A stretch of 64,000 nt of DNA, taken from an uncultured Spirochaetaceae bacterium (lineage in GTDB: Bacteria > Spirochaetota > Spirochaetia > Sphaerochaetales > Sphaerochaetaceae). This document shows, piece by piece, positions 43,782 to 58,937 of the stretch (the first letter of the stretch is position 1; each line of letters opens with the position of its first letter). A program made the translations under genes and the position numbers. The stretch spans positions 1 to 64,000 of the forward strand of contig CALXOL010000002.1 in the NCBI GenBank assembly GCA_944390015.1, given 5' to 3'. Below the pieces are notes generated by a model that saw only the letters and a program-made list of their open reading frames with translations, was not told the DNA's origin and searched no databases.

Positions 43782-46229
43782 ATGGATGAAAAAGATAGAA
43801 ATGATGAGATGGAGATAGATTTAATCGCCTTGATGAAAGGTGTTTTATCACGGGCCTGGATTGTAATTCTCTCGTTCATCATATTTGTTGCAGCTACGGT
43901 TTTCTACCTTGTGAATACCGTACCGATTTATGAGGCCTCCGCATCCATGATGGTCGAGCCTCTAAGTGATACCAGTATTTCTTCCCTCTTTGATGCGGGA
44001 TTCTCAAGTACGAGCAATATCTCTACGGAACTTGAGATACTAAACAGCAGAAGCACTTATGACAATGCGATAGCCAAGCTCGATTTAACGAAATACGTAA
44101 GCTCTGATGGGATACGGTATTCGGATTTCGAGATTCCACTCGGTTATGAGGCGCTAAGCAAGATGGTCACTGTCGAGGCTGTTTCTGATACTTCATATAT
44201 CAGGATTACGGTACAGAACCAGAGCCCGGAGTTCGCCCGGGATTTCTGTAACGCCCTTGCCGACAGCTATTCGGACGTGCTTACTGGGATAACCCGTAAC
44301 AGTGCCCAGAGTCAGCTTGAGTTCATAACTGCGGAAATTCCTTCCGTTGAAGCTGCATTAAGGCAGGCTGCACAGGATCTCAGTGATTTCCAGAGAGATA
44401 ACAATCTTCTCCAGATGGGTGCGGAGAACCAGATTCTGCTTCATCAGATGAGCTATCTGACACTCGTCAGGGAGCCTCTTAAGAGGGAGATCGCAGAGGC
44501 GGAGAGGTATCTTGGCTCGTTTGAATCCTCATATGCTGAACTCTCTGAAAAACGTGAGTCGTTCTCTAAGGATGTGAATGTTCTCTCTGCAAGTGAGGAT
44601 ATCATCACATGGTATGGGGAGTCGATTCTCTATGATGTGCTTGCCAGCACTTCGCAAAGTCAGGCATCATCGCTCAGCTCAACTCAGATGTCGAGGTATT
44701 ATGCGCTTTCCCAGATGATGGAGGCAGCGGAGACGGATCTAGAGAACTATCTTTGCTCCGGCCTAACTGATGTGCTCTCTTCCGTGGATGCCCTGAGTTA
44801 TGCGCAGTACTATCTACAGCTTTCTCTTGGTGAGAGGAAGATGGTCGTAATCGATGAGATGCTGGGAGAGATAGATCTTGAGCTGGAAAAAGTCCCTGAT
44901 ATTGAGAGGGAGCGTCTTGAAAAGGAGAGTAATGTCGAAGTATATCAGCAGCTTGTGCTGTTTTTACGCCAGGCACAGAGTGAGACTTCCCTCCTTGAGG
45001 CGAGCATTACAGACAATGTTACCAGGATTGATGGTGCGATTCTTCCTCTTGAACCGGTGAGCCCAGCTAAGGCGAAGACACTCTTAATAGGTGGATTCCT
45101 CGGCATATTCATCGGTATCGCCATCGCAGCGGTTCTTACTCTGATGGATAAGAGGATAATGAGCAGAGATGATTTGGAGAAGTGTCTCGATTCCGATATT
45201 CCAGTGCTCGGCTGGATTCCTCTCGTAAAGCCTAAGAATGATAAAAAGAAGAGGAGGGGAATTGCTCTAAATCTCAATCCGATGTCATTCATAAGTGAGC
45301 GCTATAAGCAGATAGCATCCGCAATGATTTACGGCAGGAAGCTGGGCAGTCACTTCATAACCGTCTGCTCTCCTGGAAAGAATGATGGAAAGTCTACGAC
45401 GATTGCGAATATAGCATATGCACTTGCCTTAAACGGAAAGAGAATCCTGATTGTTGACATGGACTTAAGAATGCCGGCAGTGGAGAATGTATTTGAAGTA
45501 AAGCATGCAGATAAGGGTATTGTGGATGTTCTTAGCGGGGATGCTAGAGCTGATGAGGTCATAAGGACTCCTTTCAGCGAGCTTCCGAATCTTAACATAG
45601 TCGGAGTCGGAAAGCCCGTTGTAGTTCCTTCGATTGTTATTCAAACGTTCAGCATTGAGGATTTCATCAATTCTGTAAAATCTCATTATGACTACATCTT
45701 CTTCGATGCGCCTCCTCTTTCCTATGCCTCTGAGCTTTTGACCATTGCACGTGTCGCACCTGAAGTGCTGATTATAGCAAGGGCTGGAATAAGCACAAGT
45801 GACGAGGTATCGATGCTCGTCCATGACCTCAAGGAGGCATCGGCGAATATCATCGGTGTATGTCTCAATGGCTTAGCGCTCTCTGACACAAGCGTGGTTA
45901 ATAAAGGTGCATACGGCTATGGTTACGGCTATGGGTATGGATTATCAAAAGACACCAGGAAAGAAAGGAATGAGATCAGGAAAACCTATGTGAAGAAAAA
46001 GAGCAGCTATCTTAAGATATACCGTAAGCAGCTTAAGAGTAGGGCGCATAGGGAGGCTTCCTCCTCGTTCGAGCTTGCTCCTCTGAGTTTCCCGAATGGT
46101 TTTGCCTCCTTCTCAGATCACAGCGAGAAGAGGGAGAATCATTTCAATGCAAAGGATATGCTTAAGACATTCGAGGATTACCTCAGTGATGTTGAGAATG
46201 ATGAGAATGCAAAGGGCAAAAAGGAGTAG
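43782..46229 (+). CDS. Wzz/Wzc-type chain-length regulator and BY-kinase
   Basis: The 815-residue inner-membrane protein has a Wzz domain with two membrane helices (near residues 20-45 and 430-450), a long periplasmic coiled region between them and a cytoplasmic tyrosine autokinase: Walker A PGKNDGKSTTIANIAYA near 530, Walker A' ILIVDMDLRMP near 560 and Walker B IFFDAPPLSYAS. The tyrosine cluster GYGYGYGYG (about 709-718) is internal and is followed by a basic tail of some 95 residues, whereas in E. coli Wzc it is at the extreme C-terminus. It controls polysaccharide polymerisation and export with the Wza-like protein. No glycosyltransferases are adjacent. Confidence 0.88.
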   Translation: MDEKDRNDEMEIDLIALMKGVLSRAWIVILSFIIFVAATVFYLVNTVPIYEASASMMVEPLSDTSISSLFDAGFSSTSNISTELEILNSRSTYDNAIAKLDLTKYVSSDGIRYSDFEIPLGYEALSKMVTVEAVSDTSYIRITVQNQSPEFARDFCNALADSYSDVLTGITRNSAQSQLEFITAEIPSVEAALRQAAQDLSDFQRDNNLLQMGAENQILLHQMSYLTLVREPLKREIAEAERYLGSFESSYAELSEKRESFSKDVNVLSASEDIITWYGESILYDVLASTSQSQASSLSSTQMSRYYALSQMMEAAETDLENYLCSGLTDVLSSVDALSYAQYYLQLSLGERKMVVIDEMLGEIDLELEKVPDIERERLEKESNVEVYQQLVLFLRQAQSETSLLEASITDNVTRIDGAILPLEPVSPAKAKTLLIGGFLGIFIGIAIAAVLTLMDKRIMSRDDLEKCLDSDIPVLGWIPLVKPKNDKKKRRGIALNLNPMSFISERYKQIASAMIYGRKLGSHFITVCSPGKNDGKSTTIANIAYALALNGKRILIVDMDLRMPAVENVFEVKHADKGIVDVLSGDARADEVIRTPFSELPNLNIVGVGKPVVVPSIVIQTFSIEDFINSVKSHYDYIFFDAPPLSYASELLTIARVAPEVLIIARAGISTSDEVSMLVHDLKEASANIIGVCLNGLALSDTSVVNKGAYGYGYGYGYGLSKDTRKERNEIRKTYVKKKSSYLKIYRKQLKSRAHREASSSFELAPLSFPNGFASFSDHSEKRENHFNAKDMLKTFEDYLSDVENDENAKGKKE

Positions 46230-52799: not shown

Positions 52800-53104
52800 T
52801 TTTACCCTCCCAAGTAATTTACATTGCCGAATACTTATACTATTGATAATAAGAGCATTTATCTTTTTGGGCAATCTGGAAATGTAAAAGAAAATAAAAT
52901 TTCCTTTGATAAATACAGATTGTACAGATACGGTTACTTAACTTTATATTTAATTACAAAATAATTAATTACCTTAGTCTTAAATGTTTCTTGCTTATAC
53001 AATCTTACTGCTTTAACTACCATATTCGCTTAAAACATTGGATAGCTGAACTTAAAACTTTAATAATCGTAATTTCTGTTTTATCATGGGAAGGGAGGAG
53101 TAAT

Positions 53105-54893
53105 ATGAGAAAAAAACTAAAAAAGGCATTTGTTTTGATTTTCTGTCTTATTTCCTTCTCTTTTTCCGTTTTTGCTGCGGTAACGGATGGTAACAGACAG
53201 GAAATCGTGGCAGTGGATAGCCCAATATATGGTGCAATGAAAAACCTATATATCTCCACAGGGCTTGCTCTGCCTTCTACTACCGGTCCTTGGTCAATGG
53301 CTGAGATGGATATGATGCTTGAGCGCATTAATCCCGAACAGCTTTCAGAGAGCGAGATGACTATTTATGAGTATCTTCTGTCCGAGATAAGGCATACGCC
53401 AAGATTTGAGCCAGAGAAGGCCAATGGCGTTTTTGGCTTCACAATCTCTGCGGATGTTGCTGCTGAAATGTATACTCGTAGCAACCCTGAGGCATTTTCA
53501 AGTCCTGATGATTATGGCTTTGCAAAACACATGGGAGATTATAATGTTCCGACTCCATTGTTGGACATACCACTTGAAACATGGTTCGGCGACAACATAT
53601 ATGGTTTCTCTTCTTTCCAGTTTGGCCTTAACAGAACGCTTATTGAAAGTGATGCACAGAAAAGTGCGCATGTTCTTACAAACATCCTAATGGTTCCTCC
53701 TGTCGTTCTCAACGATTTAAATCTTAACTTCCCTTACCGTGCTTTTGGATCAATCGGGGGGGGGGTGGTGGAACATCTCTATTGGTCGTGATAGGTTAAG
53801 ATGGGGGCCGGGAGAGTCTGGCAATCTTACAATCGGCGATCAGGTTAAATACCACAATAATCTTAGATTCACAGCTTTTTCTAATGTTTTCAAATACACA
53901 TTCAGCATCAGTTCATTCGTCCATCCGAAAAGCTATTTAAATTGGGAGGGGACAGAACTGGATACGGCATATTCTCAAGAGGATGAGCGGGATGGCATAA
54001 ATATGTTTATCGCACATCGACTTGAGTGGAGAATTCTGGACAAGGTTAACATGGCTCTTACCGAGTCGATCATGTACCAGTCGGAGAAGAACCAGTTTGA
54101 TCTTCTCACTCTCAGTCCTACCGCGATCTTCCATAACTACTACATCAGGAGTAATTCAAATTCACTTTTAAGTTTTGAGGTTGATTACACCTTTATAGAC
54201 CATTGGAACCTATATGGTGAGATGGTTATCGATGAATTTAAACTTCCAGGTGAGTTCACAAATGATGGACCACCTTCCGCATCTGGATACATCCTTGGAT
54301 TAAAGACTGCATATCCGATTGGACAAGGTATGCTCTACGGCTCTCTGGAAGGGGCGTATACAGATCCATTCCTATATTTGAGGGATAACGGATCAGAGAG
54401 GGATAATCCAGTACATTATGGAATTAATTTTGTTGTTGGACAGCCTGATTTTACAAATTCAGGATCTTCCAATTATGTGCTGGACTTCCTTGGTTACCGC
54501 TATGGTAATGACAGTGTCGTTGCTAATTTAAATGTTGGTTATGAGGTATATGGAAAATGGAATGTTGATTTCACTTTCACATATTGGGCTGATGGAATAA
54601 TGGATATGAACTCTAAATGGCATTATACTACGCCGGGGGTAGATGATCCGAGTTCACCTACATCAAAGCCGGTAAATGATAAGGATGGTTCTTGGGATCC
54701 ATCCTCAAATTGGGAAAGTAGAAATGCTGTTGCCCATTGGCTTCTGTTCAATATCGCAGGGCATTATACGTTTATCGAGTCGCTTGACTTATACGCCCAG
54801 TTCAGATTCATCAATGTCATCAACTATGAGAATGTAAAAGGACAGAGCGAGAGAGATGTTCAATTCAGCATTGGTTTAAGTTATAGCTTCTGA
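53105..54893 (+). CDS. Phase-variable Wzi-like capsule assembly protein, frame interrupted at G10
   Basis: The gene begins at ATG 53105 after GGGAGGAG and encodes a signal peptide (FVLIFCLISFSFSVFAAV) and a Wzi-like N-terminal region (VDSPIYGAMKNLYISTGLALPS). At a run of ten Gs (53756-53765) the frame ends 26 nt later (TGA 53789-53791). The next frame continues WWNISIGRDRLRWGPG to 54893, aligning with GRDRVNWG of the intact paralogue downstream. Nine Gs would give a continuous protein of 595 residues. Wzi-type barrels hold capsule at the outer membrane. In this copy the protein is cut at 228 residues, so it reads as switched off; a single-base sequencing error would look the same. Confidence 0.8.
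53756..53765 (+). repeat. Poly-G tract (G10), slipped-strand switch
   Basis: Ten consecutive Gs lie inside the Wzi-like coding region. Loss of one G or gain of two restores the frame. Tracts of this length are classic sites of replication slippage. Confidence 0.85.
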
Positions 54894-54899
54894 GTCTTA

Positions 54900-54923
54900 G
54901 CTGAGGGGCTCTGGCTCCTCAGC
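54900..54923 (+). other. Strong intercistronic hairpin between the two Wzi-like genes
   Basis: Ten base pairs (54900-54909 with 54914-54923, one G-U) close a TCTG loop. No T-run follows, so it may stabilise or process the mRNA, or act as a weak terminator. Confidence 0.55.
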
Positions 54924-54943
54924 ATTCCACATCGGAGAATCTA

Positions 54944-56647
54944 ATGAGAAAAATACTTCTTCTAATCCTGTTGTCGCTAACCCCTTTCCTTCTTTTTTCC
55001 ACAGATGCTTATTTTATAGATATTGAATCACCGTTTTATGATATTGTGGATGATCTTTATCTGCTTGAAGGAATGGCAAAGCCCTCACAGGCAAGACCAT
55101 ATAGTATGGCTCAGGCGAGATTGATTCTCTCCAGAGTTGATAAAGATAATCTTGACGGGTATTCTGCCACCCTCTTTCAGATTGCAAAAGAATATCTTAA
55201 GGATGTCAGATGGCAGATGCCGGGCGGATTTGGTTTTGGCGCATATTTATCGATAGCTCCAGAGATGTATGTACACTCAAATGGGAAAGAGTTCAGAAGT
55301 GAGTATGATTGGGCATACGGTTATGATGATAGAAACAGATTCCTTAAAGTAGGGCTTGAATTCAGCGTAGGAGAGTATTTCTATACATATGCCGACCTGA
55401 TGTATACAATGGGGCGTTATGCCGCAGATGGAGCTGTAACAAGTGGTAATTCTGATTATCCTGATGGAATTGGAGCTATTTTACCTGTTAAAGACAATCA
55501 ATTCATTCTTGTTGACGAGAATAAGCATTATTATGACTTGGTATCGAGTAACATACCACCGGTATCAGGGGAATTTGAATTTGAGTGGCCTAAGAGAGCG
55601 TTTGTTTCTTTTGGCGATAAATCCTGGTCTTTTCTTTTTGGCCGAGACAGGGTGAACTGGGGCAACTCACATGTTGCTAATTTCATAATCGATGATCATG
55701 TGGGCTATCATGATATGGCCCGGCTCACATTCTTTTTAGATAAGTTCTCTTATGAGACGACAACTCTCTTCTTCGAAACCAGAGGATTGGGTAGGGAAGA
55801 GGTGGAGGAAGAAGTGAAGATGCTTCTTACGCATCGCTTGGAGTTCAGGCCTTTTAAATGGCTGGATTTCGCAATTAGTGAGAACGTTATGTACAAGGCT
55901 CCGGTTTTGAGCCTTCAATATCTTAATCCTGGATTCATCTTCCATAACCTCAATAACCGTTCGATGTTCAATGCCATAGCTTCTGCTGAAGTTAACGTAA
56001 CTCCCATTAGAGGTCTTGATCTTTATGCACAGTTCGTTCTCGATCAGGCAGTAGCTCCTAATGAGAGTGCTTCCCAAGGTAATGCCTGGGGCTTTCTCGC
56101 AGGTGCTGAGTATAAGTTCTCGCCATCGGATCAGGGTGTCCTATCCTTTAATGTAGAGTTTGATTATACAACACCACTATTGTATAGAAGGGATAAGGTT
56201 GATTTCCTGATGTATCAGAGATCCTTTACACTCGACATGAACTATCCTCTTAAACTCTATTATATCGGCTATAGATATGGCGGGGATGTGATGCTTCTCC
56301 ATGCGGGTATAAAGTATGACCATCACGACATCTTCTCGATATCATTAACAGGGGAAGGAATGCTAAAGGGGGAGATGGACATGGCAAAGAGCCATAATAC
56401 TGATGGGAATAATAATGAATATCCAAATTATCAAGGCACAACACCATCTGGAGAAAAGATACAACAGATTATCTTCGTGACATTAGCTGGGGAATATAAT
56501 ATCCCTAGGTTGCCTGATTGGATGGAGATGAGCGTTGAATCATCATTGTCTTTTATCGGAAGTCAATATCTTGAGAAAAGTAGTGGAATGATAAGTGGGC
56601 AAAAAGGAGATGTGCAGTTTTCTTTGGCTTTGAAGCTATCTATTTAA
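54944..56647 (+). CDS. Wzi-like capsule assembly outer-membrane protein
   Basis: The 567-residue protein has a signal peptide (ILLLILLSLTPFLLFSTDA) and the Wzi-type opening IESPFYDIVDDLYLLEGMAKPSQARPYS with paired helices (LILSRVDKDNL), then a long barrel with the conserved FGRDRVNWGNSHVANFII. Wzi is an 18-strand barrel lectin that attaches capsule or exopolysaccharide at the cell surface. It is intact and follows the phase-variable paralogue by 50 nt. It fits functionally with the Wza/Wzc pair at 42-46 kb. Confidence 0.82.
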   Translation: MRKILLLILLSLTPFLLFSTDAYFIDIESPFYDIVDDLYLLEGMAKPSQARPYSMAQARLILSRVDKDNLDGYSATLFQIAKEYLKDVRWQMPGGFGFGAYLSIAPEMYVHSNGKEFRSEYDWAYGYDDRNRFLKVGLEFSVGEYFYTYADLMYTMGRYAADGAVTSGNSDYPDGIGAILPVKDNQFILVDENKHYYDLVSSNIPPVSGEFEFEWPKRAFVSFGDKSWSFLFGRDRVNWGNSHVANFIIDDHVGYHDMARLTFFLDKFSYETTTLFFETRGLGREEVEEEVKMLLTHRLEFRPFKWLDFAISENVMYKAPVLSLQYLNPGFIFHNLNNRSMFNAIASAEVNVTPIRGLDLYAQFVLDQAVAPNESASQGNAWGFLAGAEYKFSPSDQGVLSFNVEFDYTTPLLYRRDKVDFLMYQRSFTLDMNYPLKLYYIGYRYGGDVMLLHAGIKYDHHDIFSISLTGEGMLKGEMDMAKSHNTDGNNNEYPNYQGTTPSGEKIQQIIFVTLAGEYNIPRLPDWMEMSVESSLSFIGSQYLEKSSGMISGQKGDVQFSLALKLSI

Positions 56648-57812: not shown

Positions 57813-58937
57813 CTAGATTTCGTTTTTCTTGAAGATGAAAGATGCAAATATGCATGTGAGAGGTGTAACGAGTATAAGCGATATTGCTCCGATTACCGTC
57901 TGAAGTATTTCAGATGCGATGCTTTTACTGGTGAGGATGTTCAGAATCGGAGTGCTTTGAGCCATATATACCATCATCACCGTGAGGAATGAACCCATGT
58001 ATGCAAGTAGCAGTGTGGTGCACTGAGTGCCTACGCCAGCTCTTCCGACTTCCATTCCAGATTTGAAAAGCTCTCTTCTTGTTATGGTCTTCGCATGTTC
58101 ATTTACTTCCCACATCGCAGCGGATACATCTATGGAGAGATCCATTATCGCACCACCTGCAGAGAGTATTACCACACCAGAAAAAAGTGAAGTCAGGTCA
58201 AGATCCATGAAGCCGGAGTATAAAAGGCTCTCACTCTGCTCAAGAACCGATCCATGTATACCCAGATATTCTGTTGCCGCACTTGAAAGGAATACTGTTA
58301 TGATGATCGCACTTACGGATCCGAGTATCGCGGAGAATGCCCTCTTGTTCACTCCCGAGATCAATAGGAGAGTGAAGAATGTCATTACAATTAGAACTAA
58401 GGAACTGACGATGAGTGGATTATATCCTTTCAATGTGAAGGGAATTAGAATCTTCCAGATAAGGAGGAATGCAAATACGAAGGAGAGAATTGTTCTTACC
58501 CCTCTCAGCTTTGAGAAAGCAATCAGGGCGGCAATCAGGATGATTGCAAGAGCGATCTCCTTACTTAATCTGTAGTGGTCGATCATGTTTATGAAAATCA
58601 CATTATCATCCCTGTCTCGTTCGACGAGGGTCCATGCCTTCTCCCCGGGAATGAACATCTTATCGTCTTTCAGACTTCCTGAAAGAAGGTTCACAGCATC
58701 CCCTTCGTATCCCTTGTGTTCTCCTGAGAGTATTCTGATCCTGCATCTCTGTTCTCCCTGTCTGAAGAGTCCTGTCTGTATCACTGTGCTCTCATCGGTT
58801 TCAAGTACAAGTGCCTTAGCCCCTACTGCGTTATAGTAGATGTCACGTTCAAAGCCGGTTGGGATGAAAACAAGAACTATGCTTAAAAAAAGGAAAATGA
58901 GTGTGAATATGAGGTCTTTTCTGTTTGGTTTTATCAA
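57813..58937 (-). CDS. YibE/F family membrane protein
   Basis: The 374-residue protein has an N-terminal helix, an extracytoplasmic beta domain (RIRILSGEHKGYEGDAVNLL) and about seven further membrane segments, with the YibE/F motifs DLSIDVSAAMWEVNEH and GMEVGRAGVGTQCTTLLLAYMGS. The family is uncharacterised. The best start is TTG 58937, 8 nt after AGGAG; the GTG at 58946 directly abuts that site. It lies downstream of phoA after a hairpin, so partial cotranscription with a phosphate-response gene is possible. Confidence 0.82.
   Translation of the reverse strand: MIKPNRKDLIFTLIFLFLSIVLVFIPTGFERDIYYNAVGAKALVLETDESTVIQTGLFRQGEQRCRIRILSGEHKGYEGDAVNLLSGSLKDDKMFIPGEKAWTLVERDRDDNVIFINMIDHYRLSKEIALAIILIAALIAFSKLRGVRTILSFVFAFLLIWKILIPFTLKGYNPLIVSSLVLIVMTFFTLLLISGVNKRAFSAILGSVSAIIITVFLSSAATEYLGIHGSVLEQSESLLYSGFMDLDLTSLFSGVVILSAGGAIMDLSIDVSAAMWEVNEHAKTITRRELFKSGMEVGRAGVGTQCTTLLLAYMGSFLTVMMVYMAQSTPILNILTSKSIASEILQTVIGAISLILVTPLTCIFASFIFKKNEI

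Follow-up and report, generated by a model that had tools for sequence, protein, structure and literature searches.

How should a gene be read whose two halves lie in different frames on either side of a run of ten Gs: as mis-sequenced, as broken, or as switched off? The question is raised by wziA, a gene in the window, that is, the whole 64,000-nucleotide stretch of DNA from an uncultured Spirochaetaceae bacterium that was analysed. We hold with fairly high confidence that wziA is a translational contingency locus, assembled in its OFF state, within a genus-wide poly-G phase-variation system. The gene and its parts are as follows.

53105..54893, + strand: wziA, Wzi-like outer-membrane barrel gene, frameshifted at the poly-G tract (ORF reading, weak Pfam match, fold of an orthologue model)
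53093..53100, + strand: ribosome-binding site of wziA, GGGAGGAG (sequence)
53105..53791, + strand: 228-residue stub of the ten-G reading, with signal peptide, N-terminal helices and first barrel strands (ORF reading, orthologue model)
53756..53765, + strand: G10 tract of wziA, in coding sequence, in frame with 9 (or 6, 12) Gs (sequence)
53766..54893, + strand: downstream half of wziA, out of frame as assembled; open, conserved and under purifying selection (ORF reading, orthologue comparison)

The tract has exactly 10 Gs; all other G runs in the window are shorter, the next being one run of 7 and six of 6. In the ten-G frame, the ATG at 53105 opens 228 codons that end in a stop at 53789-53791, and the ~1.1 kb past the tract, up to 54893, is open in the nine-G frame. 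With nine Gs the gene has 595 codons and matches its relatives without a gap. Nine is taken as the in-frame count because the orthologue motif shows no length difference at the tract. The sequence-only reading had claimed that ten Gs put the two halves in different frames, that nine Gs restore a 595-residue reading where ten give a 228-residue stub, and that the assembled allele is OFF; ORF reading confirms the first, relatives that align without a gap bear out the second, and frame arithmetic supports the third. A run of at least 7–8 Gs that sets the frame within coding sequence is one mark of a poly-G translational contingency locus, and wziA has such a run. The tp0126 or porA type, with poly-G between the -35 and -10 boxes, does not apply to wziA, as its tract is coding.

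E. coli Wzi is an outer-membrane protein of group 1 capsule assembly. The downstream half of wziA scores 21.4 bits against Pfam Caps_assemb_Wzi (PF14052), below the curated cut-off of 30.1, and NCBIfam gave no match. Since a solved-structure sequence search using the family alignment returned chance matches alone, Wzi membership rests on the fold. The intact orthologue in locus L083 was modelled (pTM 0.81), and the model matches E. coli Wzi (2YNK) with Z 27.2 and rmsd 3.2 over 395 residues, the next match having Z 17.8. The wziA family is thus predicted to have the Wzi fold, in agreement with the earlier description of a Wzi-like outer-membrane protein; with E. coli Wzi it shares, by this prediction, N-terminal helices and a large beta-barrel, at about 14% identity, whereas here the family is expanded to at least 10 paralogues. 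The G10 position corresponds to residues 218-220 of the model, a barrel hairpin turn between strands 205-218 and 222-229. As the tract lies at a turn between two barrel strands, the stub would retain no more than the signal peptide, N-terminal helices and initial strands.

These observations suggest a simple mechanism. DNA polymerase slippage at the G tract would add or drop one G at a time; a count of nine (six or twelve would serve as well) would give the full 595-residue Wzi-type outer-membrane barrel, and ten Gs would give the 228-residue stub. Because the stub should be unable to form a barrel, wziA would then be OFF. That wziA actually switches, at what rate, and with what effect on capsule attachment, is something we infer from the sequence of one assembly.

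A second Wzi-like gene follows, and a capsule-related gene lies upstream.

54944..56647, + strand: wziB, intact Wzi-like paralogue, 567 aa (ORF; Pfam Caps_assemb_Wzi 30.3 bits, cut-off 30.1)
54934..54937, + strand: ribosome-binding site of wziB, GGAG (sequence)
54900..54923, + strand: wziA-wziB intergenic hairpin GCTGAGGGGC-TCTG-GCTCCTCAGC, 10-bp stem, 4-nt loop, no T run (sequence, RNA fold)
43782..46229, + strand: Wzc-like polysaccharide co-polymerase / tyrosine kinase (Wzz + GNVR + AAA_31), 7 kb upstream of wziA (domain matches)

The Wzc-like gene is evidence for capsule or exopolysaccharide export in the neighbourhood. The gap from the wziA stop to the wziB start is 50 nt, and the partnership of the two genes is kept in L083, L088 and L089, with changing orientation. 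The claim of an intact paralogue 50 nt downstream therefore stands; that wziB stays on is suggested by its own ribosome-binding site, but an OFF wziA leaves ~1.1 kb of untranslated message ahead of wziB. The hairpin (-24 kcal/mol, z -1.9) is a possible attenuator or processing site. Switching had also been proposed to change the mix of capsule-binding proteins at the surface. The genome has 10-12 Wzi matches and not two, and the fold is what suggests that the wziA product may bind capsule polysaccharide.

Whether wziA is a solitary accident or one of a class can be judged from the rest of its genome (2.19 Mb), where G/C runs were counted by pattern searches and in the stretches that were fetched. 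Those of 7, 8, 9, 10 and 11+ letters number 6, 2, 9, 6 and 0, with a dip at 7-8; runs of at least 9 total 15, against 2-6 expected by Markov extrapolation from the window. As is characteristic of contingency tracts, they are over-represented and placed mostly in surface and glycan genes. The genome thus has ~15 poly-G loci, most of them surface genes, and tract placement is non-random. The host genes include three Acyl_transf_3, a Bac_transf, an MGDG/GT28-type glycosyltransferase, a BspA-LRR lipoprotein, LpoB and a Flg_new lipoprotein. By contig and position, the tracts outside wziA are the following.

C5:49019 and C9:372: in-frame coding tracts in acyltransferase-3 genes
C8:21044: in-frame coding tract in a glycosyltransferase, G10
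C7:85734: in-frame coding tract in a PlsC-type acyltransferase
C1:88136: in-frame coding tract in a secreted protein, G10
C8:41298: in-frame coding G9 tract in a membrane protein
C5:52427: tract in an acyltransferase-3, out of frame as assembled
C3:42390 and C10:76832: tracts in two lipoproteins, out of frame as assembled
C5:72307: tract at the end of a sugar transferase
C12:10036: tract in a phage-like gene
C5:73022: tract upstream of a sugar transferase
C13:72009: tract upstream of a BspA-LRR lipoprotein
C17:34515: tract upstream of LpoB

In the proposed mechanism wziA would be one of these ~15 loci, together with lipoproteins, glycan O-acyltransferases and sugar and glycosyl transferases. 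Loss of mismatch repair leading to hypermutation was considered and found unsupported, MutS1 being present in the genome.

The repertoire also bears on the possibility of an assembly or sequencing error, by which the true count would be nine and wziA intact. Homopolymers are the commonest consensus error, and all tracts here are 9 or 10 long. However, besides wziA at least three loci read OFF (C3:42390, C5:52427 and C10:76832), and the in-frame and out-of-frame states are not explained by any single length bias: two genes with G10 are in frame (C1:88136 and C8:21044) and three are out of frame, and several genes with G9 are in frame and one is not. Even if an error were present, the wziA tract would still be slip-prone. 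An error is accordingly judged unlikely.

Related genomes give a different kind of evidence. A search of their contigs with an alignment of the wziA family yielded 79 loci, where a single-protein query yielded none. Orthologues of wziA in related uncultured spirochaetes have 74%, 71%, 66%, 61% identity and lower, and their motif at the tract is mostly PYRAFGSIGG-x-WWN(I/F), gapless. The glycines are encoded without a G run, as GGA GGT TCA TGG TGG in L083, GGA GGC TCT TGG TGG in L084 and GGA GGA GCG TGG TGG in L023 and L085. The poly-G tract is absent at this position from all close orthologues inspected, and their frame is fixed. The sequence-only reading had named relatives of just this sort as evidence against a switch. 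The pattern is literally the one found, and we do not consider it decisive, given the poly-G repertoire of the genome and the frequent restriction of contingency tracts to single species; core phasomes and phase-variable repertoires vary, for example, among Campylobacter species (PMC6321876).

Relatives without the tract would also suit a recent ordinary frameshift, which would make wziA a fresh pseudogene covered by the 10-12 Wzi paralogues, and so many paralogues could indeed make it dispensable. Against this, the frameshift is the single lesion in 595 codons, with no second one found, and it falls within the window's longest G run. The downstream half also shows no relaxed constraint. Compared with L083, synonymous change there is saturated (pS 0.81) and pN is 0.14; measured against the outgroup L087, dN is 0.30 for the window copy and 0.34 for the intact L083 copy, so that the former has not diverged further. 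Two out-of-frame comparisons were left out of account: the hits of a wziA query (wziA_C) and the comparison for the gene at 57813. Purifying selection acts on the half past the tract, and the window branch shows no surplus of changes. G9 or G10 tracts interrupt further genes of this genome in the same manner, and a pseudogene is therefore considered very unlikely. Weaker still is the proposal that transcriptional or ribosomal slippage at G10 gives some full-length protein in each cell, so that wziA is leaky and not switched; homopolymers of such length can cause RNA polymerase slippage and neither frame is interrupted before the tract, but the tract is not conserved in orthologues, unlike what is expected of a programmed signal, and this account has the least credence.

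The reading of wziA as a contingency locus draws further strength from other Wzi genes. Independent runs of G9, G10 or C9 occur in four more of them among the fetched loci; each is in frame and each sits at a different site, immediately past the signal peptide in L089, within the N-terminal third in L128 and L133, and past the signal peptide in L131 (Candidatus Aphodenecus pullistercoris). Contig positions assign L089 and L128 to genome G104 and L133 to G099, two genomes of the window's genus. In L134, a G8 falls on the motif that holds the wziA tract. Less favourably, tracts are only modestly enriched in the Wzi family: 4/6 fall within 25% of the DNA (p about 0.04).

Poly-G tracts are a general feature of the genus, G9 tracts being found in 40/40 genomes searched. 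In a sample of 95 tracts from other species, 52 have a lipobox no more than 250 nt downstream, versus 3.6% of control positions taken from those loci, and the distances cluster at 93-103 nt. TTGAC precedes the tract in 35/37 cases inspected and TAnnnT directly follows in nearly all. The typical layout is TTGACA, 7 to 10 nt, G9-12, TAgnnT, about 30 nt with GGAGG, ATG and a lipoprotein signal. Judged by these motifs, most lipoprotein-gene tracts of the genus appear to sit between the -35 and -10 boxes. The spacer is most often 19 nt; with one or two Gs fewer it would have the usual optimal length. In 48 genus genomes TTGAC-N7-13-G8 gave 423 hits versus 14 for the reversed pattern, overlapping hits counted, and was present in 38/48. 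Elsewhere in the class it is rarer, except in family f24, possibly Treponemataceae, with up to 17 per genome (e.g. G164, G214, G220, G269 and G324).

The wziA locus would thus belong to a genus-wide system in which most tracts of other species lie in the -35/-10 spacers of lipoprotein promoters. The genus probably runs a combinatorial surface switching, with slip-prone G tracts in the promoters of many lipoprotein genes per genome and frame-switching in capsule acetyltransferases and Wzi barrels, so that each cell would display its own random set of proteins and glycans. The poly-G contingency mechanism put forward earlier is most likely right, given the many tracts in surface genes of both genome and genus.

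The kind of switch is already known, from Campylobacter and from tp0126 and tpr in Treponema pallidum, and the earlier statement that poly-G switching of surface proteins is established, including in Treponema, holds (PMC7864442). In a literature search of partial coverage, no paper clearly addressing homopolymer phase variation of Wzi was found, none on phase variation in Sphaerochaeta, and no report of poly-G phase variation in the present lineage, among spirochaetes only reports for Treponema. Campylobacter jejuni and relatives likewise have species-specific repertoires of frame-shifting coding tracts dominated by G9 and G10 (52% G9, 30% G10; 77% in ORFs by PhasomeIt; PMC6321876). Those are Campylobacterota, whereas the bacterium here is an uncultured spirochaete, and more than half of the tracts sampled from its genus lie upstream of lipoprotein genes. 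Closer in phylum is Treponema pallidum, also a spirochaete, in which promoter poly-G tracts of about 7-11 alter expression of the outer-membrane proteins tpr and tp0126 and vary in length within an isolate; the tp0126 tract spaces the -35 and -10 boxes, with an optimum of 17 nt (PMC7864442). The wziA switch would act on the reading frame and the tp0126/tpr switch acts on the promoter, but in the present genus numerous lipoprotein genes have the tp0126-like promoter form.

More broadly, the wziA locus looks to be one among many poly-G loci in the surface-coat genes of this spirochaete and related species. Most large phase-variable repertoires built on poly-G have been described in pathogens, such as Campylobacter, Neisseria, Helicobacter and Treponema pallidum. 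The genus studied here, represented largely by metagenome assemblies, follows the same logic, which makes coat diversification by such cells testable; many genes called broken or truncated in these genomes may be switched-off alleles.

Some tracts recur at the same place across species. Those before a PapD-type chaperone gene are found in four genomes, with a G8 in the window's own genome (G8-G10; L174:2370, own-genome contig C14, L202, L222, L213 and L064); the C14 chaperone gene adjoins a Wzi paralogue. Two species share a tract at the N-terminal edge of a homologous protein. In L219, L073 and L074 a G9-G11 tract lies at the start of a response-regulator gene whose products are 82-91% identical; this regulator could be phase-variable.

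A near-identical promoter, G tract and signal peptide recur among lipoprotein genes within one genome: L241, L246 and L060 (G018), L226 and L227 (G006), and L211 and L212 (G043). The mature lipoprotein parts differ in L241/L246 and in L226/L227, as if leader cassettes had been copied or recombined. By hand count, 10/75 tracts are no more than 200 nt from a contig end, versus about 1.4 expected, a ~7x excess (G006, G018, G041 and G043). Such breaks could come from repeats or from a mixture of tract lengths; as duplicated lipoprotein leaders might account for the excess, it was not used as a sign of tract-length mixture. In the window's own genome, the membrane protein with the in-frame G9 at C8:41298 (L168:524-1744) runs into a TnpB-like fragment with OrfB_IS605 and Cas12f1-like TNB domains.
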